Source: Roseobacter sp. (GTDB lineage: Bacteria > Pseudomonadota > Alphaproteobacteria > Rhodobacterales > Rhodobacteraceae). From it: a DNA stretch of 64,000 nt. The notes under the pieces are model-generated. The model saw only the letters and a list, made by a program, of their open reading frames with translations. It was not told the DNA's origin and made no database searches. Of the stretch, positions 36,952-53,788 are shown in pieces. Made by a program: the position numbers and the translations under genes. Location: NCBI GenBank assembly GCA_015665415.1, contig JADFAE010000002.1, forward strand, positions 62,001 to 126,000, read 5' to 3'. Positions within the stretch are counted from its first letter, which is position 1; the number at the start of each line of letters is the position of its first letter.

Positions 36952-37116
36952 GCCAAGTGTTTCATGTCAGCCCTTAGATAAGAATGTTCCACATATGTTC
37001 CTAGTCCAGCCTGTGAATAACTTTGCGAATAAGTGGATTTCCGCCAAAATCAGCAACTGATTCGCGGAGACCCACCGCGGATCCTAAACAACAGGAGCTC
37101 CGGAGCGAGGGGCTGA

Positions 37117-39771: not shown

Positions 39772-42129
39772 TCAGAATGGCACGTCTTCGCTGGAAGAAA
39801 TGAAGCGGGCCACAACCTTTTTCACGCCGGCTTTTTCAAAAGCTACTTCCAACTTGTCACCTTCAATGCCGGTGATAGCGCCATATCCGAACTTCTGGTG
39901 GAACACCCGCTCCCCAAGCGTGAAACTGGAGGTGGCGGTCAGATCTATCACCTGACTGCGGCTTTCCTTTGGTTGCGCCATGCCCCGCTGTCCGGCCCGC
40001 GCCTGCATCCGCTTCCAGCCCGGCGAATTATAGCCATCGGCCTGGGCCATCTTAGCCTCGATGGTGGACCGCACAGGCTCAGCCGAACTGGCCGCCGCGC
40101 CATAGCCGCCACCATACAGCCCCGGTGGCGTCAACACTTCCACATGCGGCTCGGGCAGCTCATCGACAAAACGCGAAGGCAGCTGCGATTGCCACTGACC
40201 AAAGACCCGCCGGTTGCCGGCAAAGGAAATGGTGCAAATCTCTTCGGCGCGGGTGATGCCAACATAGGCCAGGCGGCGCTCTTCCTCGAGCCCCTTGAGG
40301 CCGGATTCATCCATCGAGCGCTGCGAGGGAAACAACCCATCCTCCCAGCCCGGCAGAAACACCGCCGGAAACTCCAACCCCTTGGCCGCATGCAGCGTCA
40401 TGATCGAGACCTTTTGATCCGAATCCTGCTTGTCATTGTCCATCACCAGGCTGACATGTTCGAGAAACCCTTGCAGGTTTTCAAAATTCTCCAGCGCCTT
40501 GACCAATTCCTTGAGGTTTTCCAACCGCCCGGGGGAATCCGGGTTCTTGTCCGCCTGCCACATCCCTGTGTAGCCGCTTTCATCCAGAATGATCTCCGCC
40601 AGTTCCATATGAGAGATGTCGGGGTCTTCCACCATGCGACCCCAGCGCGCCAGATCCTCGACCAGACGCCGCAGGGCCGCGCCGCCTTTGCCCTTGATTG
40701 CGCCAGCCTCCACCGCAAGATGCGCACCCTCGACCAGAGAAACGCCATTGTCGCGGGCAAAACCCTGAATGGTTTGCTGCGCCTTGTCCCCCAACCCACG
40801 TTTGGGCGTATTCACAATCCGTTCAAAAGCCAGATCATCATCCGCAGAGGTAACCATGCGGAAATATCCCATGGCATCGCGAATCTCGAGCCGTTCGTAA
40901 AACCGGGGGCCGCCAATGACGCGATAGGGCAAACCGATGGTGAGAAAGCGATCCTCAAAGGCGCGCATCTGATGCGAGGCCCGCACCAAAATCGCCATAT
41001 CGTTGAGGTCGATGGGGCGTTGACCGCGGGTGCCGCGCTGCGTCGCCTCGATCTCTTCGCCGATCCAGCGCGCCTCTTCTTCGCCGTCCCAATGGCCGAT
41101 GAGGCGCACTTTTTCGCCGCCCTTGGCCGCCGTCCACAGCTCCTTGCCCAACCGGCCCGCATTGCCGCTGATCACTCCGGACGCGGCGGCCAGGATATGC
41201 TCGGTTGAACGGTAATTCTGCTCCAACCGCACCACCTTGGCACCGGGAAAATCCTTTTCAAAACGCAGAATATTGCCCACCTCGGCACCGCGCCAGCCAT
41301 AGATCGACTGGTCGTCATCGCCAACGCAGCAGATGTTTTTGTGACCCCCAGCCAAAAGCCGCAGCCACAGGTATTGGGCGATATTGGTATCCTGATATTC
41401 GTCGACCATGATATAGCGGAACCAGCGCTGATATTGCGCCAGCACGTCACTGTGATCCTGAAAGATCGTCACCATGTGCAACAAGAGATCGCCAAAATCG
41501 ACAGCGTTCAATTCGCGTAAGCGGGTTTGGTACTGGGCATAAAGCTCTGGCCCGCGGTGATTGTAAGCGCCTGCCTCGGAGGTCGGCAGCTTTTGCGGTG
41601 TCAGCGCCCGGTTTTTCCAATCATCAATGATGCCCGCCAGCATCCGCGGCGGCCAGCGTTTCTCATCAATATCCGATGCTCGGATCAATTGTTTGAGCAG
41701 CCGGATCTGGTCGTCGGTATCCAGAATGGTGAAATTCGACTTGAGCCCCACCAATTCTGCATGACGCCGCAACAACTTGACGCAGACAGAGTGAAAGGTG
41801 CCCAGCCAGGGCATGCCCTCGGCAGGCTGGCCCAGCATTCCACCAACCCGCTCCTTCATCTCGCGCGCCGCCTTGTTGGTAAAGGTCACCGCCAGAATTT
41901 CATTTGTGCGGGCTGAGCCGGTGTTCAACAGATGCACGATACGCGCGGTCAGCGCCTTGGTCTTGCCGGTGCCAGCCCCCGCCAGCATCAAGACCGGCCC
42001 GTTCAGACATTCTACCGCCTCCCGCTGCGCCGGGTTGAGCCCGTCGAGATAGGGTGTGGGGCGGGCCGCCATGGCACGCGACGACAGGGAGGCGCCCTCA
42101 AAGGCGTCCATTTCATCAAAACTGCTCAT
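39772..42129 (-). CDS. uvrD: UvrD/PcrA-type superfamily 1 DNA helicase
   Basis: This 785-residue 3'-5' helicase has all SF1A motifs: Walker A G-A-G-T-G-K-T near residue 50, D-E-Y-Q-D-T-N (II), G-D-D-D-Q-S-I-Y-G-W (III), T-L-H-A-A-K-G-L-E (V) and V-G-I-T-R-A-E (VI). The C-terminal R-V-F-H-Q-K-F-G-Y-G region is the Tudor-like tail that contacts RNA polymerase in UvrD/PcrA. The start is uncertain: 42129 has only a weak ribosome site, and 42111 is the alternative. The gene is divergent from the diguanylate cyclase gene. Confidence 0.94.
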   Translation of the reverse strand: MSSFDEMDAFEGASLSSRAMAARPTPYLDGLNPAQREAVECLNGPVLMLAGAGTGKTKALTARIVHLLNTGSARTNEILAVTFTNKAAREMKERVGGMLGQPAEGMPWLGTFHSVCVKLLRRHAELVGLKSNFTILDTDDQIRLLKQLIRASDIDEKRWPPRMLAGIIDDWKNRALTPQKLPTSEAGAYNHRGPELYAQYQTRLRELNAVDFGDLLLHMVTIFQDHSDVLAQYQRWFRYIMVDEYQDTNIAQYLWLRLLAGGHKNICCVGDDDQSIYGWRGAEVGNILRFEKDFPGAKVVRLEQNYRSTEHILAAASGVISGNAGRLGKELWTAAKGGEKVRLIGHWDGEEEARWIGEEIEATQRGTRGQRPIDLNDMAILVRASHQMRAFEDRFLTIGLPYRVIGGPRFYERLEIRDAMGYFRMVTSADDDLAFERIVNTPKRGLGDKAQQTIQGFARDNGVSLVEGAHLAVEAGAIKGKGGAALRRLVEDLARWGRMVEDPDISHMELAEIILDESGYTGMWQADKNPDSPGRLENLKELVKALENFENLQGFLEHVSLVMDNDKQDSDQKVSIMTLHAAKGLEFPAVFLPGWEDGLFPSQRSMDESGLKGLEEERRLAYVGITRAEEICTISFAGNRRVFGQWQSQLPSRFVDELPEPHVEVLTPPGLYGGGYGAAASSAEPVRSTIEAKMAQADGYNSPGWKRMQARAGQRGMAQPKESRSQVIDLTATSSFTLGERVFHQKFGYGAITGIEGDKLEVAFEKAGVKKVVARFISSSEDVPF

Positions 42130-42354
42130 ACCCGTGACACTAGCGTGATTCAGCGCCCGATAAAAGAGGACGTTCGCATTCTGTTCGCTGAATTTCACAG
42201 CCTTCGCCAAGCTGCAGGTCGCCGAGAATTATATAAAATCCGAACCAAACACCGAGAGCTTCGATCTGGAGACTCTCGCCTTCCGGGTGCAAAGTAACCC
42301 TATCGAAACCCAAATCACCTCTAGTATTCGAGTAGTTTTTAACTTGGTGAGAAT

Positions 42355-45743: not shown

Positions 45744-48700
45744 ATGACTGACTTCAAGAAGATCCTGATAGCGAACCGAGGCGAGATTGCCATTCGCGTG
45801 ATGCGCGCGGCAAATGAGATGGGCAAGCGGACGGTTGCCGTCTACGCCGAAGAGGACAAGCTGGGGCTGCATCGCTTCAAAGCGGATGAGGCCTACCGCA
45901 TCGGCGAGGGCATGGGCCCGGTGGCGGCCTATCTCTCGATCGATGAGATCATCCGTGTTGCCAAGGAATGCGGCGCAGATGCGATCCACCCAGGCTACGG
46001 ACTGCTGTCGGAGAACCCCGATTTTGTCGACGCCTGTGCGCGCAACGGCATCACCTTCATCGGCCCCAAGGCAGAGACCATGCGCGCCCTGGGCGACAAG
46101 GCCTCGGCGCGGCGCGTTGCGGTCAAGGCCGGGGTGCCGGTCATCCCCGCCACCGAGGTGCTGGGCAATGACATGGAAGCAATCAAGAAAGAGGCGGCCG
46201 AGGTCGGCTACCCCTTGATGCTCAAGGCCTCTTGGGGCGGCGGCGGTCGCGGCATGCGGCCGATCTTCTCCGAAGAGGAAGTCGAAGAAAAAGTGCTGGA
46301 GGGCCGCCGCGAGGCTGAGGCCGCATTCGGCAATGGCGAGGGCTATCTGGAAAAGATGATCCAACGCGCCCGCCACGTCGAGGTTCAGATCCTGGGCGAC
46401 AAACACGGTGAGATCTACCACCTGTTCGAACGCGACTGCTCGGTGCAACGGCGCAATCAAAAGGTGGTGGAACGCGCCCCCGCCCCTTACCTCACCGATG
46501 AGCAGCGCGCCGAGATCTGCGAGCTGGGCCGCAAGATCTGCAAACATGTGAACTATGAATGCGCCGGTACCGTCGAATTCCTGATGGATATGAACGACGG
46601 CAAATTCTACTTCATCGAAGTGAACCCACGGGTGCAGGTGGAACATACCGTCACCGAAGAAGTCACCGGCATCGACATTGTGCAGGCACAGATCCTGATC
46701 GCCGAAGGCAAGACCATTGCCGAGGCCACCGGCAAGGCGGCTCAGGAAGAGATCCAGTTGACCGGTCACGCTTTGCAAACACGGGTGACCACCGAGGACC
46801 CGCTGAACAACTTCATCCCCGACTATGGCCGCATCACCGCCTATCGCTCAGCCACCGGCATGGGCATCCGTCTGGATGGCGGCACCGCCTATGCGGGCGG
46901 CGTGATCACGCGCTATTATGACAGTCTGCTGACCAAGGTCACCGCCTCGGCGCAGACCCCCGAAAAAGCCATCGCCCGCATGGACCGCGCCCTGCGTGAA
47001 TTCCGTGTGCGTGGTGTCAGCACCAATATCGCCTTTGTCGAGAACCTGCTGAAACATCCGACCTTCCTCGACAACAGCTACACCACCAAGTTCATCGATG
47101 AGACGCCGGAGCTGTTCCAGTTTGCCAAGCGCCGCGACCGGGGCACCAAAGTGCTGACCTATCTTGCCGATATCTCTGTCAATGGTCACCCGGAGACCGA
47201 TGGCCGTGCCGCACCTGCCGCCGATCTCAAGGATCCTCGCGCGCCCAAGGCAGATCCCGGCAACACACCCTATGGCACCCGCAATCTGCTGGAGCAAAAA
47301 GGTGCCCAGGCTGTCGCCGACTGGATGAAGGCGCAGCGCCAACTGCTGCTGACAGACACCACCATGCGCGACGGCCACCAGTCCTTGCTGGCGACCCGGA
47401 TGCGGTCCATCGACATGATCAAGGTGGCCCCGGCCTATGCGCAGAACCTCAGCCAGCTGTTCTCGGTGGAATGCTGGGGCGGCGCGACCTTTGATGTCGC
47501 CTATCGTTTCCTGCAGGAATGCCCCTGGCAGCGTCTGCGCGATCTGCGCGAGGCGATGCCAAACGTGATGACCCAGATGTTGCTGCGCGCCTCCAATGGC
47601 GTCGGTTACACCAATTACCCCGACAATGTGGTGCAGGAATTCGTGCGCCAGGCCGCCACAACCGGCGTCGATGTCTTTCGGGTTTTTGACAGTCTCAACT
47701 GGGTCGAAAACATGCGCGTCGCCATGGATGCGGTTGTTGACAGCGGCAAGCTGTGTGAGGGCACCATCTGCTACACCGGCGATATCCTGGACCCGGATCG
47801 CGCCAAATATGACCTGAAATACTATGTTGGCATGGCAAAGGAACTGGAAGCCGCAGGGGCCCATGTTCTGGGCCTGAAAGACATGGCGGGCCTGCTGAAA
47901 CCCGCAGCCGCCCGTCAGTTGGTCAAAGCGCTGAAGGAAGAGGTCGGCCTGCCGGTGCATTTCCACACCCATGACACCTCTGGCATTGCTGGTGCTACCA
48001 TTCTGGCCGCCGCCGACGCCGGTGTCGATGCCGTGGATGCCGCCATGGACGCCTTTTCAGGCGGCACCTCGCAGCCCTGCCTCGGCTCCATCGTCGAGGG
48101 TCTGCGCAACACCGACCGTGACACCGGGCTGGACATCGCCAAAATCCGCGAGATCTCCGACTATTGGGAGCAGGTGCGGGCGCAATACGCGGCCTTTGAA
48201 AGCGGCATTCAGGCCCCAGCCTCCGAAGTCTACCTGCACGAGATGCCTGGCGGTCAGTTCACCAATCTCAAGGCGCAGGCGCGCTCTCTGGGGCTGGAAG
48301 AGCGCTGGCATGAGGTCGCCCAGACCTATGCCGACGTGAACCAGATGTTTGGCGATATCGTCAAGGTAACCCCCTCTTCCAAAGTGGTCGGGGACATGGC
48401 GCTGATGATGGTCAGCCAGAACCTGACCCGCGACGAGGTGGAGAGCCCCGAGACCGAGGTCTCCTTCCCGGACAGCGTCGTCGACATGATGCGCGGCAAC
48501 CTCGGCCAGCCTCCCGGGGGGTTCCCGGCTGGCATCACCAGCAAGGTGCTGAAAGGCGAAGCCCCCAATCTGGCCCGCCCCGGTGCCCATCTGGCGGCCG
48601 TGGATCTGGAAGAGACCCGCGCTGAACTCAGCCAGCTGCTGGAAGGCAAGGTTGTGGATGACGAGGATCTCAACGGCTATCTGATGTATCCCAAGGTTTT

Positions 48701-49196
48701 CCTCGATTACATGGGCCGTCATCGCCAATATGGCCCGGTGCGCGCCCTGCCCACCCGTGCCTTCTTTTACGGGATGGAGCCCGGCGAGGAGATCACCGCC
48801 GAGATCGACCCAGGCAAGACGCTGGAAATCCGCCTGCAGGCCCTGGGTGAAACCGATGAAAAAGGCGAGGTCAAAGTCTTCTTTGAACTCAACGGTCAGC
48901 CCCGCGTCATCCGCGTGCCCAACCGTCTGGTCAAGGCCAGCACCGAAACCCGTCCCAAGGCCGAAGCCGGCAATGCCAACCACATCGGCGCGCCGATGCC
49001 CGGCGTTGTGGCCTCTGTCGCGGTACAGGTCGGACAAGAGGTGCACGAGGGCGATATGCTGCTGACCATCGAGGCGATGAAAATGGAGACCGGGTTGCAC
49101 GCCGAGCGGTCTGCACGCGTCAAAGCCCTGCATGTCTCTGCGGGCACCCAGATCGATGCCAAAGACCTGATGCTGGAACTCGAAGACATCGATTAA
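45744..49196 (+). CDS. pyc: Pyruvate carboxylase
   Basis: This 1150-residue single-chain biotin enzyme makes oxaloacetate from pyruvate. Biotin carboxylase (about residues 1-455) has the Gly-rich ATP loop G-G-G-G-R-G-M. The carboxyltransferase barrel (about 530-800) starts with T-M-R-D-G-H-Q-S-L. The allosteric/PYC_OADA region follows, and the biotinyl domain ends the chain with E-A-M-K-M-E, where K1113 carries biotin. GAGGAG precedes the ATG. The 335-base gap upstream (45409-45743) holds only its promoter region, and a 12-bp hairpin follows at 49219-49246. Confidence 0.97.
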   Translation: MTDFKKILIANRGEIAIRVMRAANEMGKRTVAVYAEEDKLGLHRFKADEAYRIGEGMGPVAAYLSIDEIIRVAKECGADAIHPGYGLLSENPDFVDACARNGITFIGPKAETMRALGDKASARRVAVKAGVPVIPATEVLGNDMEAIKKEAAEVGYPLMLKASWGGGGRGMRPIFSEEEVEEKVLEGRREAEAAFGNGEGYLEKMIQRARHVEVQILGDKHGEIYHLFERDCSVQRRNQKVVERAPAPYLTDEQRAEICELGRKICKHVNYECAGTVEFLMDMNDGKFYFIEVNPRVQVEHTVTEEVTGIDIVQAQILIAEGKTIAEATGKAAQEEIQLTGHALQTRVTTEDPLNNFIPDYGRITAYRSATGMGIRLDGGTAYAGGVITRYYDSLLTKVTASAQTPEKAIARMDRALREFRVRGVSTNIAFVENLLKHPTFLDNSYTTKFIDETPELFQFAKRRDRGTKVLTYLADISVNGHPETDGRAAPAADLKDPRAPKADPGNTPYGTRNLLEQKGAQAVADWMKAQRQLLLTDTTMRDGHQSLLATRMRSIDMIKVAPAYAQNLSQLFSVECWGGATFDVAYRFLQECPWQRLRDLREAMPNVMTQMLLRASNGVGYTNYPDNVVQEFVRQAATTGVDVFRVFDSLNWVENMRVAMDAVVDSGKLCEGTICYTGDILDPDRAKYDLKYYVGMAKELEAAGAHVLGLKDMAGLLKPAAARQLVKALKEEVGLPVHFHTHDTSGIAGATILAAADAGVDAVDAAMDAFSGGTSQPCLGSIVEGLRNTDRDTGLDIAKIREISDYWEQVRAQYAAFESGIQAPASEVYLHEMPGGQFTNLKAQARSLGLEERWHEVAQTYADVNQMFGDIVKVTPSSKVVGDMALMMVSQNLTRDEVESPETEVSFPDSVVDMMRGNLGQPPGGFPAGITSKVLKGEAPNLARPGAHLAAVDLEETRAELSQLLEGKVVDDEDLNGYLMYPKVFLDYMGRHRQYGPVRALPTRAFFYGMEPGEEITAEIDPGKTLEIRLQALGETDEKGEVKVFFELNGQPRVIRVPNRLVKASTETRPKAEAGNANHIGAPMPGVVASVAVQVGQEVHEGDMLLTIEAMKMETGLHAERSARVKALHVSAGTQIDAKDLMLELEDID

Positions 49197-49608: not shown

Positions 49609-49706
49609 GCCTCACCAAATGTAGCGCGGGCGTAGCTCAGGGGTAGAGCATAACCTTGCCAAGGTTAGGGTCGGGCGTTCGAATCGCCTCGCCCGCTCCA
49701 TTTGGA
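49609..49706 (+). repeat. 98-bp direct repeat, copy 1 (around tRNA-Gly 1)
   Basis: This 98-base block, which includes the whole tRNA gene, is identical to 51864-51961 and differs by one base from 52103-52200. Copies 1 and 2 flank the restriction-modification locus. Confidence 0.9.
49626..49700 (+). tRNA. tRNA-Gly(GCC), copy 1
   Basis: The 75-base gene has a perfect 7-bp acceptor stem (GCGGGCG/CGCCCGC), anticodon GCC in a CCTT-GCC-AAGG arm, a TTCGAAT T-loop and an encoded CCA. Upstream, TTTTCCTCTTGC and TGCCTAATT form the shared promoter. A hairpin terminator (49712-49739) follows, with a sequence different from those of copies 2 and 3. Confidence 0.97.
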
Positions 49707-49847
49707 CACGAAAAGGCCATCCCATCTGGGGTGGCCTTTCGCGTTGAGCCCCCCTGCCCAAAGCGATAGCCTCTCTCTTGCGCGGAATCGGCGAAACGCG
49801 TAGGAACAGATCCAGAACGAAATACTACAGCAGGCAGGCGATACAAC

Positions 49848-50807
49848 ATGCTCACATCCGTTGAACTTTGCGCCGGCGCTGGCGGACAGGCCCTGGGTTT
49901 GGAAAGAGCCGGGTTTGATCACACCGCACTGGTCGAGATCGACAAGCATTGCTGTGCCACCCTGCGCCACAACCGCCCCAACTGGAATGTGCTGGAAGAA
50001 GACGTGCGCCTGTTCAAGGAAGAGGCCAGCGCCTACAAGGGCATCGACCTTCTGGCCGGCGGGCTGCCCTGCCCCCCCTTTTCCGTAGCCGGTAAGCAGC
50101 TGGGCGAAAAGGATGAGCGCAACCTCTTTGACGATGCCATCGATATTGTCGACAGTACCCGCCCCCGCGCCGTGATGATCGAAAACGTGCGCGGCTTTCT
50201 GGACGCGGTGTTTCATGACTATCGCGAGAAGTTGAAAAAACAGCTGTCGAAACTGGGCTACGAGACCGATTGGCGGTTGCTCAATGCCTCTGATTACGGC
50301 GTGCCCCAGCTGCGCCCCCGGGTGGCCATCATCGCCCTGCGCAAGGAATATTCCGATCAGTTCAACTGGCCAGAGCCGCTGCCGCACAATCCGCCAACCG
50401 TGGGGGCGACCCTGTTGGATCTGATGCAGGCCCGGGGCTGGCGCGGAGCTGAAGATTGGGCCGCCAAGGCAGATGAGATCGCGCCAACCATCGTTGGTGG
50501 CTCCAAAAAACACGGCGGCCCCGACCTCGGCCCCACCCGTGCGCGTCGCGCCTGGGCCGCGCTGGGGGTAGAGGGGCGCACCATCGCCTATGAGGCCCCT
50601 GATCCGTTCCACAACGACATGCCGCGCCTGACCGTGCCCATGGTTGCCCGCATCCAGGGGTTCCCGGATGACTGGCACTTCACCGGTGCCAAGACCAATG
50701 CCTACCGCCAGGTCGGCAATGCCTTCCCACCGCCCGTGGCAGAGGCCGTCGCGCGCCAGCTGAAAGAGGCTATAGCCAAGCCACGCCTTCATGCTGTGCG
50801 CGCCTGA
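49848..50807 (+). CDS. DNA (cytosine-5)-methyltransferase of an RM system
   Basis: The protein has 319 residues with the C5-methyltransferase motifs in order: SAM loop E-L-C-A-G-A-G-G (6-13), catalytic P-C75 in G-G-L-P-C-P-P-F-S, E-N-V at 112-114, Q154-x-R-x-R158, a target-recognition region (about 180-280) and Q-V-G-N-A-F-P-P-P near the end. It protects host DNA from the endonuclease encoded next. The partner's NaeI similarity suggests the target GCCGGC. It lies between two tRNA-Gly genes. Confidence 0.92.
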   Translation: MLTSVELCAGAGGQALGLERAGFDHTALVEIDKHCCATLRHNRPNWNVLEEDVRLFKEEASAYKGIDLLAGGLPCPPFSVAGKQLGEKDERNLFDDAIDIVDSTRPRAVMIENVRGFLDAVFHDYREKLKKQLSKLGYETDWRLLNASDYGVPQLRPRVAIIALRKEYSDQFNWPEPLPHNPPTVGATLLDLMQARGWRGAEDWAAKADEIAPTIVGGSKKHGGPDLGPTRARRAWAALGVEGRTIAYEAPDPFHNDMPRLTVPMVARIQGFPDDWHFTGAKTNAYRQVGNAFPPPVAEAVARQLKEAIAKPRLHAVRA

Positions 50808-50820
50808 TCCGGCAGGAGTA

Positions 50821-50846
50821 CCCAGCCCTGTTCGGGCTATGCTGGG
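50821..50846 (+). promoter_or_regulatory. Hairpin between methyltransferase and endonuclease genes
   Basis: AGCCC/GGGCT (50824-50838) and CCCAGC/GCTGGG (50821-50846) are nested or alternative stems 12 bases before the TTG start of the endonuclease. They could lower its translation. Confidence 0.4.
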
Positions 50847-50858
50847 ACGGGGGCTGAC

Positions 50859-51761
50859 TTGAAACGAAACCTCCCCGACAGCCAGATCACGCCGGGGCAT
50901 CCGGATTTTGACCTGCTGGACTCGCTTGCCCGCGAAATCACTGCCCGCGCCGGTGGGGCTTTGACGCTGGAGCAGGATTTTCCCGCCATGCTGCGGCACT
51001 GCATCGATGATGTGATCATGACACCCAAGACCGGGCGACGATCCTACGAAGAGCTGGAAAAGACCGAAAAGACCTACATCGGCACCCGGGTCGAGATCGA
51101 GTTGCGCGCCCTTCTCCGCCTGCCCCGCGGACGGTTGGACACAGAGATCCTGGGGCGCGACGTCGATATCAAAAACACCATGGGCTCCAACTGGATGATT
51201 CCCAGCGAGGCTCTGGACCACCCCTGCCTGTTGGTGGCCGCCGATGAGGTACGCGCGCGTTGCTACCTGGGCCTGATCGTGGCCCGTCCAAGTTATCTGA
51301 CCAAAGGCAAGAACAAGGACGGCAAGGGCTCGATCTCCGCCGCCGGATTTGGCAATATCCTGTGGTTGCTTTGCGATCATGCCTATCCGGCCAATTTCTG
51401 GCGCGCTCAGGACCCGGAGGTGGTCACCGAGATTTTTTCCGGCCGCACCGGAAATGCCCGCATGGCCAGCCTGTTTCGCCACATCCCAAACACGCCGATT
51501 GCCCGCGATGTGGTTGAGGCGGTGGCACAGCAAAAGGATTTCATGCGCCGGATCCGCTCGGACAAGGGACGTGGCACCCGCGACCTGCTGGAACGCGACG
51601 GCATGTTGCTCCTGTCCGGCCAATATGACAGCCAATTGATCAAGGCGCTGGATCTGCCCGCCTGCAGCAGCTCCGAGTTCATCTCTTGCACCCCCAAGAC
51701 TGAGCAGGCCCGGCACCTGGCCAGCCAGGCCGGTTTCTCCCTGCCCGACATACCGGGGTGA
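50859..51761 (+). CDS. NaeI-like type IIE restriction endonuclease
   Basis: The protein has 300 residues and resembles NaeI throughout its N-terminal endonuclease domain (about residues 15-165): K-T-G-R-R-S-Y, then E-K-T-Y-I-G-T-R-V-E, then D-V-D-I-K-N-T-M-G-S-N-W-M. The PD-(D/E)xK site fits D94, D103 and K105, with E79 as a further candidate. The C-terminal half would be the NaeI effector-DNA-binding domain. NaeI needs two GCCGGC sites to cut. The only possible start is TTG at 50859, in the same frame as the methyltransferase and 51 bases after its TGA. Confidence 0.78.
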   Translation: MKRNLPDSQITPGHPDFDLLDSLAREITARAGGALTLEQDFPAMLRHCIDDVIMTPKTGRRSYEELEKTEKTYIGTRVEIELRALLRLPRGRLDTEILGRDVDIKNTMGSNWMIPSEALDHPCLLVAADEVRARCYLGLIVARPSYLTKGKNKDGKGSISAAGFGNILWLLCDHAYPANFWRAQDPEVVTEIFSGRTGNARMASLFRHIPNTPIARDVVEAVAQQKDFMRRIRSDKGRGTRDLLERDGMLLLSGQYDSQLIKALDLPACSSSEFISCTPKTEQARHLASQAGFSLPDIPG

Positions 51762-51863
51762 GCCGCTGCCCGAGATGGTTCACTGCATAATGCCACGCCA
51801 AAGGAATCTCACCTTTTGATTCACTTTTCCTCTTGCGGCTTTGGATCGGATTGCCTAGATACC

Positions 51864-51961
51864 GCCTCACCAAATGTAGCGCGGGCGTAGCTCAGGGGTA
51901 GAGCATAACCTTGCCAAGGTTAGGGTCGGGCGTTCGAATCGCCTCGCCCGCTCCATTTGGA
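51864..51961 (+). repeat. 98-bp direct repeat, copy 2 (around tRNA-Gly 2)
   Basis: This block is identical to 49609-49706. Together they bracket the restriction-modification genes. Confidence 0.9.
51881..51955 (+). tRNA. tRNA-Gly(GCC), copy 2
   Basis: The 75-base gene is identical to copy 1. Its own promoter-like bases (TTTTCCTCTTGC and TGCCTAGATA) lie upstream, and its own terminator lies downstream. Confidence 0.97.
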
Positions 51962-51966
51962 TCAAA

Positions 51967-52003
51967 AGGCCGCCAGATGCATCACGCATCGGCGGTCTTT
52001 TTG
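51967..52003 (+). terminator. Terminator of tRNA-Gly copy 2
   Basis: GGCCGCC pairs with GGCGGTC around an inner GATGC/GCATC stem and is followed by five T residues. Confidence 0.88.
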
Positions 52004-52102
52004 TCTTTGTGACCCCTCCTCAACCACTTGAGCCATATGTGAAAAACTTGCCATCAGAGCGGTTTTTCCTCTTGCGGTGCTTGGGCGCATTGCCTAAATA
52101 CC

Positions 52103-52200
52103 GCCTCACCAAATGCAGCGCGGGCGTAGCTCAGGGGTAGAGCATAACCTTGCCAAGGTTAGGGTCGGGCGTTCGAATCGCCTCGCCCGCTCCATTTGGA
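52103..52200 (+). repeat. 98-bp direct repeat, copy 3 (around tRNA-Gly 3)
   Basis: This copy has one base difference (T to C just before the tRNA) from copies 1 and 2. Confidence 0.88.
52120..52194 (+). tRNA. tRNA-Gly(GCC), copy 3
   Basis: The 75-base gene is identical to copies 1 and 2, with TTTTCCTCTTGC and TGCCTAAATA upstream. Confidence 0.97.
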
Positions 52201-52435: not shown

Positions 52436-53788
52436 ATGGCCCCAGTCATCTACCCAACCACCAATCTCACCGCGACAGAGCAGATGTGCCTTGAACGAGG
52501 CGAGGGGATCTATGTCTTTGACGACAAAGGAAACAAATACATCGAAGGCCTGGCTGGTCTATGGTGTACTTCCCTGGGCTACGACAACAAGGAGGTGATC
52601 GAGGCGATCACCGAGCAGTTGAACGCCCTGCCCTTTTCACATACCTTTGGCGGCAAGACCCATCAGCCCCTGATCGATCTGGCGAACAAACTGGCGACCA
52701 TGGTGCCGGTGGAGGATGCCCATATCTTCTTTGGCAACTCTGGCTCTGACGCAAATGACAGCCATTACAAGATGCTGCGCTATTATTTCAACGCCATCGG
52801 CAAGCCGGAAAAGCGCAAGATCATCACCCGCGAACGGGGCTATCACGGGGTCACCGTCGCGGCGGGCTCGCTCACGTCGCTGCCTGCCAACCTCGCGCAT
52901 TTCGATGCCCCGATCGAAGCGCTGAGCATCCTGCGCACGGATGCTCCGCATTACTACACCGGCCGCCAGGGCAACGAGACCGAAGCGCAGTTTGTCGACC
53001 GCATTCTGCAGAACCTCGAAGACCAGATCCTGGCCGAAGACCCCGACACCATCGCCGCAATGATTGTCGAGCCGATCACCGGTGCCTCGGGCGTTATTGT
53101 CCCCCCTGATGGCTATTATGAAAAACTGCAGGCGCTGCTGCGCAAGCACGGCATTCTGGTCTGGGCGGATGAGGTGATCACCGGATTTGGTCGCACAGGC
53201 GCCGATTTTGGCTGCGCCACCATGGGCATCAAACCGGATCTGATGACATTCGCCAAACAGCTCAGCTCTGCATATTTCCCGATCTCCGCCAGCGTTGTTC
53301 CCGGCTGGATGTACAAGGAAATGGTCGCGCCCTCCAACGCGGTTGGCGTCTTTGGCCACGGCTATACCTATTCCGGCCACCCCGCCGCCTGCGCCGCCGC
53401 CCTGAAAACGCTGGAGATCTACGAGCGCGACAATCTGTTTGAGCACGCCGCCGAGGTCGGTGCGCATATGCAGGCTGAGTTGCACCGCATTTTTGACGAC
53501 CACCCGTTGGTTGGTGAGGTGCGCGGCAAGGGCCTGATCGCCGCGCTGGAGCTGGTATCAAACAAAACCACGGGGGCGACCATTGCCGGTGGCAAGGGCG
53601 GCGCGACAGCCGTCATGGCCTGCCAGAACAATGGCGTGATTCTGCGTGCAGTGGCGGGCAATGCCCTGGCCTTCTGCCCACCGCTGATCATCACCAAAGC
53701 CGAAGTGGACGACATGCTGGCACGGGTCAAAACCGCGCTCGACAGCAGCTACGAGAGCCTTAAGGCTGAAGGACTGCTTGAGGCCTAG
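52436..53788 (+). CDS. Class III PLP-dependent aminotransferase
   Basis: This 450-residue fold-type I aminotransferase belongs to the omega-transaminase group. The N-terminal G-L-A-G-L-W-C motif, F-F-G-N-S-G-S-D-A-N, the W-A-D-E-V-I-T-G-F-G-R-T-G segment with the PLP Asp, and the Schiff-base lysine K274 (T-F-A-K-Q-L-S-S) are all present. The ATG at 52436 follows GGAGGA; a 44-codon extension is rejected. The amino donor (taurine, putrescine, beta-alanine or another amine) cannot be decided here. Confidence 0.9.
   Translation: MAPVIYPTTNLTATEQMCLERGEGIYVFDDKGNKYIEGLAGLWCTSLGYDNKEVIEAITEQLNALPFSHTFGGKTHQPLIDLANKLATMVPVEDAHIFFGNSGSDANDSHYKMLRYYFNAIGKPEKRKIITRERGYHGVTVAAGSLTSLPANLAHFDAPIEALSILRTDAPHYYTGRQGNETEAQFVDRILQNLEDQILAEDPDTIAAMIVEPITGASGVIVPPDGYYEKLQALLRKHGILVWADEVITGFGRTGADFGCATMGIKPDLMTFAKQLSSAYFPISASVVPGWMYKEMVAPSNAVGVFGHGYTYSGHPAACAAALKTLEIYERDNLFEHAAEVGAHMQAELHRIFDDHPLVGEVRGKGLIAALELVSNKTTGATIAGGKGGATAVMACQNNGVILRAVAGNALAFCPPLIITKAEVDDMLARVKTALDSSYESLKAEGLLEA

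Follow-up and report, generated by a model that had tools for sequence, protein, structure and literature searches.

A putative LexA operator at the promoter of a NaeI-type restriction-modification operon resident in a roseobacter tRNA-Gly array

How a type II restriction-modification (RM) system sets the timing and the dose of its lethal nuclease has long been asked, and control proteins, autoregulation by the methyltransferase and antisense RNA have been given as answers; autoregulation is common among such systems. Here we analyze an RM operon in a 64,000-nucleotide (nt) stretch of Roseobacter sp. DNA (hereafter the window: assembly GCA_015665415.1, contig JADFAE010000002.1, positions 62,001 to 126,000, forward strand) that pairs a C5-cytosine DNA methyltransferase (MTase) with a NaeI-type restriction endonuclease (REase) between two tRNA-Gly genes, and whose promoter region carries a putative operator for LexA, the repressor of the SOS response.

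The closest described systems each share one side of this locus. NaeI and type IIE behavior are well known from the passages cited here (PMC4081073), and GTTC-N7-GTTC is given as the LexA motif of Alphaproteobacteria and of Caulobacter in passages of three papers (PMC8565304, PMC12700426, PMC3323433). ScmA is described, in the parts of its paper that we cite, as a solitary MTase for YGCCGGCR that is tied to SOS through VsrA (PMC12907096). The LexA and SOS passages of a review of RM regulation (PMC3874152) mention LexA in general terms and in connection with the toxin gene symE, and treat SOS as a result of killing by RM systems; LexA at an RM promoter does not figure in those passages, and no LexA- or SOS-controlled RM operon appeared, by title or by the start of the abstract, among the matches listed from the open-licence literature. 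Our reading, to which we assign a probability of about 80%, is that this type II system has probably resided in the tRNA-Gly array since the ancestor of its roseobacter clade, has been inherited mainly vertically, and is kept down by LexA until DNA damage induces it; the promoter, the binding of LexA, the induction and the benefit to the cell are what we infer from sequence.

The operon and the LexA-type box at its putative promoter

The MTase (319 residues; 49848..50807, + strand) matches PF00145 (E 2.2e-71, 241 bits) and is the only match to that family in the window's genome at E <= 1e-10. The REase (300 residues, TTG start; 50859..51761, +) follows on the same strand after a gap of 51 nt and has no box of its own; the two genes, which adjoin in 11 loci of the genus, presumably share one operon. 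The preliminary description of the window had typed the endonuclease as NaeI-like, and the profile comparison bears this out, with a match to PF09126 (NaeI) at E 1e-54 and 186.2 bits against a curated cut-off of 25. The REase sequence also matches NaeI in the PDB (1ev7/1iaw; E 2.6e-29, ~30% identity), and its predicted fold (model pLDDT 90.1) aligns with 1iaw_A over 270 columns (E 7.3e-21, template-modeling score 0.75), fitting both the endonuclease and the C-terminal DNA-binding domain fold of NaeI. Residues E79, D94, D103 and K105, which are invariant across 29 homologues, align with NaeI, where we take their counterparts to be E70, D86, D95 and K97. Judged by these matches, the two genes constitute a complete type II RM pair. 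As read from the sequence, the first catalytic motif stands at the very start of the MTase, which lacks an N-terminal extension; in a PADLOC scan that covered the two RM proteins only, the MTase matches the Druantia profile DruM2 (E 2.2e-145). Counts of GCCGGC, the putative target, do not separate genome sets with the system from those lacking it (observed/expected 0.40-0.70 in the RM-bearing sets vs 0.62 in the RM-less set).

The putative LexA box, GAACAGATCCAGAAC (49804..49818, +), starts 44 nt before the ATG of the MTase. Its form, GAAC-N7-GAAC, reads as GTTC-N7-GTTC on the opposite strand, and it overlaps the -10 element of a candidate promoter for the operon (49778..49806, +) that consists of TTGCGC at 49778-49783, a 17-nt spacer and TAGGAA at 49801-49806. 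Examination of genomes of the window's genus, Pseudophaeobacter, places the exact box before lexA in 12/12, before recA in 9/12 and before the MTase in 11/11; six control genes are without it in all 57 promoters (pyc 0/7, REase 0/11, aminotransferase 0/11, hisB 0/11, tetR 0/8, hisH 0/9). Three GAAC-N7-GAAC sites occur in the window, at the RM operon, at uvrD and in an mraZ-like upstream region. The second of these (42172..42186, -), whose near edge lies 43 nt upstream of the probable uvrD ATG (gene at 39772-42129, -), serves as an internal positive control. The third (36986-37000, -) lies upstream of what we take to be a division-cluster gene pair of the mraZ/mraW kind, and may reflect either chance or SOS control.

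Conservation of the box extends beyond the genus. Within the named set, which comprises the 75 loci found with the REase, 70 carry it at most 200 nt upstream of the MTase; it is likewise present in 13 of the 15 loci of a family sample (the remaining two being L021 and L026, the latter without an MTase) and in 6/6 Phaeobacter and 10/10 Leisingera loci examined. Of the 70 loci, 56 have a TTG at a distance of exactly 26 nt on the upstream side of the box and 56 have a TA immediately ahead of it, and each is found in 31 of 45 representative promoter blocks (box-aligned and pairwise <75% identical, the rows having been selected for the box and not for TTG or TA). What these 45 blocks retain is mainly the box, the TA and the TTG. 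We interpret the TTG and TA as a probable -35/-10 pair at 17-nt spacing with the -10 lying under the first half-site, an arrangement that, on sequence, is that of a repressor site. In loci whose box lies near -90 (e.g. L193, L198, L204 and L226), inspection by eye revealed a second promoter-like pair, TTGATC ... GTTGTATG, between the box and the MTase, which is possibly a LexA-free promoter.

Several observations weigh against control by LexA. A sigma-70 consensus scan called no promoter at the RM operon, and recA lacks the exact box in 3 of the 12 genus genomes. The exact box is missing from five of the 75 named loci (L217, which has one mismatch, L220, L238, L241 and L243, the last two from Acidobacteriota), from L021 of the family sample and from a plasmid-borne Loktanella NaeI system (L274), and only one of four deeper class-level loci has it (missing in L270, L271 and L273). 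The 8-base motif is, moreover, unenriched genome-wide, with 87 exact sites vs 137 for the reversed control; the site alone therefore proves nothing, and the case rests on its position in the promoter and on its conservation.

Residence in the tRNA-Gly array

The two RM genes occupy the space between the first and second of three tRNA-Gly(GCC) genes (49626-49700, 51881-51955 and 52120..52194, all +), downstream of pyc (45744..49196, +) and upstream of a further gene (52436..53788, +); both landmarks were used as queries, and from their sequences we take them to encode pyruvate carboxylase and an aminotransferase-like protein. Copies 1 and 2 lie inside a 98-nt exact repeat (49609..49706 and 51864..51961), and copies 2 and 3, whose starts are 239 nt apart, have 97 nt in common, in register (3+75+19). 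Terminator-like hairpins, read from the sequence, follow copy 1 (49715..49740, +; not flagged by the consensus scan) and copy 2 (51968..52004, +); the hairpins behind copies 2 and 3 are related and that behind copy 1 is different. Coordinates and Pfam matches agree here with the preliminary description, which had placed an MTase and a NaeI-type REase between identical 98-nt repeats and had remarked on the close spacing and related terminators of copies 2 and 3 and on the distinct terminator of copy 1. Of the 98 nt, however, 75 are the tRNA itself. The leader (49609-49625) and trailer (49701-49706) can pair by eye (CCAAATG...CATTTGG) and covary between copies and species, as if lengthening the acceptor stem of the precursor. 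Because the repeat is thus made up of the tRNA and of flanks that pair and covary, its identity carries little weight as a sign of a recent event.

The system is close to universal in three genera. The REase was found in 11 of 12 Pseudophaeobacter genomes (the window's own and 10/11 others), with a tRNA-Gly on both sides of the operon in all 11 loci; the site of the twelfth genome (G003), which yielded no REase, is unassembled, since its contig stops inside pyc. With 7/7 Phaeobacter and 21/21 Leisingera genomes, the three genera together have RM in 39 of their 40 genomes, the fortieth being G003 with its broken contig, and the order pyc - tRNA-Gly - MTase - REase - tRNA-Gly holds in 7/7 Phaeobacter and 8/8 Leisingera loci inspected. 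The preliminary description, which proposed a recombining cassette, had itself held a common position in all relatives to speak against that idea; within the genus this is what was found (11/11 assembled sites, along with the inspected Phaeobacter and Leisingera loci), and with synonymous divergence (dS) not lower than in neighboring genes, the proposal is largely unsupported for the window's genome.

Median dS for the MTase and REase was 0.81 and 0.85 in Pseudophaeobacter (10 genomes) vs 0.68, 0.71 and 0.73 for pyc, the aminotransferase and hisB; the corresponding values were 0.92 and 0.94 vs 0.63, 0.59 and 0.62 in Phaeobacter (6-7 genomes), and 0.50 and 0.57 vs 0.38, 0.40 and 0.33 in Leisingera (8 genomes). 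Because the RM values do not fall below those of the flanks, the system appears no younger at the site than its neighbors. The ratio of nonsynonymous to synonymous divergence (dN/dS) in Pseudophaeobacter was 0.048 for the MTase, 0.129 for the REase and 0.052 for pyc, and medians over the three genera were 0.02-0.05 for the MTase, 0.13-0.17 for the REase and 0.02-0.08 for the three flanking genes (P. leonis, L149, was omitted, several of its genes being split over frames, and SK209-2-6, with its Leisingera-like RM, was retained in the Pseudophaeobacter set). These ratios indicate that both RM genes are under purifying selection, the REase less strictly, and the system looks like a core locus kept vertically in the genus. 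In all three genera dS is somewhat higher for the RM genes than for their flanks, which tells against strictly vertical descent and leaves room for some exchange between lineages besides that in SK209-2-6; weaker codon bias or occasional exchange may account for it. In the draft genome of P. leonis (L149/L235), the genes for the MTase, pyc and hisB are all broken into separate pieces or reading frames; with housekeeping genes among those affected, the likely cause is faulty assembly and not decay.

Sites without the system occur outside this group. A family survey of 295 genomes, one per genus, searched for the REase gave matches in 16, the window's own included, one of which (G088) is a match to a fragment of 96 residues that contains two stops; a survey of the class for PF09126 found 6 of 385 genomes, again including the window's own. 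In 60 regions downstream of pyc taken as the RM-less sample from 59 genomes of other genera (two of them from G077, which has RM elsewhere, and one from G088), RM was found in 0/60. One to three copies of tRNA-Gly(GCC) are present in 49 of these regions, at least two copies in 28 of the 49, often with hisB next; the tRNA was not seen in the other 11, several of which are shortened by contig ends. The comparison that the preliminary description had suggested, a search of relatives for sites holding the array alone, thus did recover them in other genera.

Such RM-less arrays would be expected if the locus were a mobile defence cassette that had arrived or been swapped through homologous recombination between tandem tRNA-Gly genes and could excise cleanly, and one genome provides a clear case of exchange. 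In SK209-2-6 (L041), the segment that runs from tRNA copy 1 through the REase resembles Leisingera more; lldD and the stretches past the aminotransferase for the most part resemble Pseudophaeobacter more, and pyc and the aminotransferase are at similar distances from the two genera, a pattern indicating that this strain swapped in a Leisingera-like cassette by homologous recombination with breakpoints near tRNA copies 1 and 2. A pyc tree points in both directions. Built on 108 rows of chosen loci (31 + 17 with RM and 60 without) from 114 genomes with a pyc match, it shows six switches in the presence of RM at the site; it also gathers the RM rows of the window's group into one clade of 38 of the 108 rows with zero RM-less members (SH-like approximate likelihood-ratio support 76, inner branches weak), with the qualification that RM-less rows were a one-per-genus draw, in which RM-less species inside other RM-bearing genera may be missed. 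The simplest history would be one entry into the tRNA-Gly array in the clade ancestor, plus a few separate entries or losses elsewhere. Set against the presence of RM in all but the one broken site of the three genera, against dS values not below the flanks and against a 98-nt identity that is mostly tRNA and its paired flanks, the arrays without RM, the exchange in SK209-2-6, the six presence switches and 16 switches of site label on the RM tree leave the mobile cassette unlikely as an account of the locus, and unlikely too as a recent event in the window's genome. Exchange between tRNA-Gly genes, as first proposed, therefore holds for SK209-2-6 and accords with the RM-less arrays, and finds little support in the genome at hand.

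The spaces between tRNA-Gly copies contain other genes in a few genomes. In SK209-2-6 and in Zongyanglinia marina (L178), the gap between copies 2 and 3 holds open reading frames (ORFs) for repeat proteins of 546 and 464 residues, respectively, presumably calcium-repeat, RTX-like proteins, which occupy the same slot in the same orientation and have similar C-termini; the GC content of this space is 0.52 and 0.53 vs 0.57 and 0.55 for the respective loci.

The operon tends to follow tRNA genes at other sites as well. In the named loci, the MTase commonly starts 130-260 nt past a same-strand tRNA gene, which among the matches listed is Gly(GCC) after pyc in most and otherwise Gly(CCC), Thr(TGT), Thr(CGT) or others; two further genomes have Thr(GGT) and Asn(GTT) upstream of the MTase. 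On the RM tree, from which L241 and L243 were omitted, the MTase is preceded within 520 nt by a same-strand tRNA in 58 of 77 rows; the 16 switches of site label depend on hand scoring, in which L208 and L220 were labeled as other despite being next to hisB, inside or close to the same interval. This preference, spread over Gly-GCC, Gly-CCC, three Thr and one Asn gene where such stretches make up, by arithmetic, ~0.3% of strand positions with the 47 tRNA genes of the window's own genome, would suit an RM system carried as cargo by a tRNA-targeting integrase element whose integrase has since been lost. We consider that origin improbable, because an exact repeat (>=13 nt) of the tRNA or its 60-nt trailer was found downstream of the REase in 0/22 loci (<4 kb being available in three), which is not the usual att arrangement. 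The far side of the RM genes in the window's genus is a whole tRNA gene. As for the remark in the preliminary description that no integrase is visible, the space between copies 1 and 2 is filled by the two RM ORFs and the att-like repeat is absent from all 22 loci, which agrees with it as far as it goes, integrase genes not having been searched for. Plasmid carriage of the REase was seen in two records (51% and 33% identity), and no phage record matched it.

Two single loci differ from the rest. In L239 (Pseudorhodobacter aquimaris), a degenerate tRNA-Gly-like sequence that drew no call from ARAGORN lies ~200-260 nt before the MTase, where other loci have an intact tRNA. The record of L201 is titled Nocardioides marinus DP1N28-1, an actinobacterium, but its locus is roseobacterial, and the record is probably mislabeled.

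A second restriction family with the box, and a possible mechanism

The box recurs in RM operons of a different type. Among the other PF00145 genes of the genus, 1/10 has it (L290 and L296 being counted as one gene), and this gene, L277, belongs to an EcoRII-like dcm/EcoRII-C RM operon. We therefore turn to plasmid operons of the EcoRII/MvaI type, of which 16 alphaproteobacterial and 3 gammaproteobacterial examples were fetched from 3777 matching records: the exact box precedes the start of the MTase, or of the match to it, by 77-108 nt in 13/16 of the former and in 0/3 of the latter. The box-bearing dcm-vsr-REase operons (L277, L298-L305 and L310-L314) are mostly plasmid-borne; the plasmid operons L306, L307 (one mismatch) and L308 are without an exact box. 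The 16 alphaproteobacterial stretches, 116,182 strand-bases in all, contain 14 boxes, 13 of which are those upstream of the MTase, although the independent cases number fewer than 13, since the promoters of L303 and L310, and those of L302 and L313, are near-identical. As NaeI-type and EcoRII/MvaI-type operons both have the box, two unrelated endonuclease families carry the LexA motif of their host group.

That GAAC-N7-GAAC is instead the operator of some other regulator, for example through autoregulation by the MTase or a CAP-like action of the C-terminal domain of the REase, would explain why the box accompanies the RM promoter in many different contexts and would be in keeping with the many RM systems that autoregulate, but it is very improbable given that the same box stands at lexA (12/12), recA (9/12) and uvrD and before an unrelated RM family, and that the MTase has no extension ahead of its first catalytic motif.

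Under the LexA reading, an ancestor of the roseobacter clade would have taken the RM system into the tRNA-Gly array that follows pyc, and the system would thereafter have been transmitted mainly vertically, under purifying selection, as a core locus. In an undamaged cell, LexA bound over the -10 would hold MTase and REase low, at a level still sufficient for methylation. DNA damage, and plausibly also phage attack or the entry of single-stranded foreign DNA, would load RecA onto single-stranded DNA and prompt the self-cleavage of LexA, upon which MTase and REase would rise together; the common promoter and the MTase-first gene order would guard the chromosome. Such an operator would couple restriction to the cell's own DNA-damage sensor, and predicts that restriction goes up under mitomycin, phage or conjugation. 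LexA control may also be part of the reason why genes of a kind that is usually patchy in distribution have become core throughout entire genera.

More tentatively, and in our estimate at somewhat under an even chance, LexA control of type II restriction could be a general alphaproteobacterial device gained independently by unrelated RM families, the NaeI type mostly on chromosomes and the EcoRII/MvaI type on plasmids. Were this so, single-stranded DNA arriving by conjugation, phage or gene transfer, or damage to the host's DNA, would through SOS raise protective methylation along with restriction, the opposite of restriction alleviation in E. coli.

Comparison with described systems

The alphaproteobacterial LexA/SOS regulon, as known from Caulobacter and Dinoroseobacter, shares the GAAC-N7-GAAC operator with the locus, and the same box stands at lexA, recA and uvrD of the genus; the passages on that regulon contain no RM operon. 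SOS-controlled integron integrases, in the passages cited, likewise exemplify genes that process DNA, are of mobile origin and have come under the LexA of the host (PMC3323433), with the difference that the integrase is a recombinase whereas the system in the window restricts and modifies. ScmA/VsrA of Caulobacter crescentus again combines an alphaproteobacterial C5 MTase, a GCCGGC-containing motif and an involvement of SOS; as presented in the parts cited, however, ScmA is unlike the window's MTase in being solitary, with no endonuclease partner, and its SOS link is caused by VsrA (PMC12907096).

The EcoRII/MvaI-type dcm-vsr-REase operons have the same box upstream of the MTase, but differ from the window's operon in their unrelated endonuclease, longer MTase, vsr gene and location on plasmids. 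NaeI itself (1ev7/1iaw) shares with the window's REase its Pfam family, its fold over 270 columns and its acidic and lysine active-site residues. The window's enzyme, unlike NaeI, has a putative target motif, stands at ~30% identity to it, and is encoded at a fixed chromosomal site behind a promoter that bears a LexA box.

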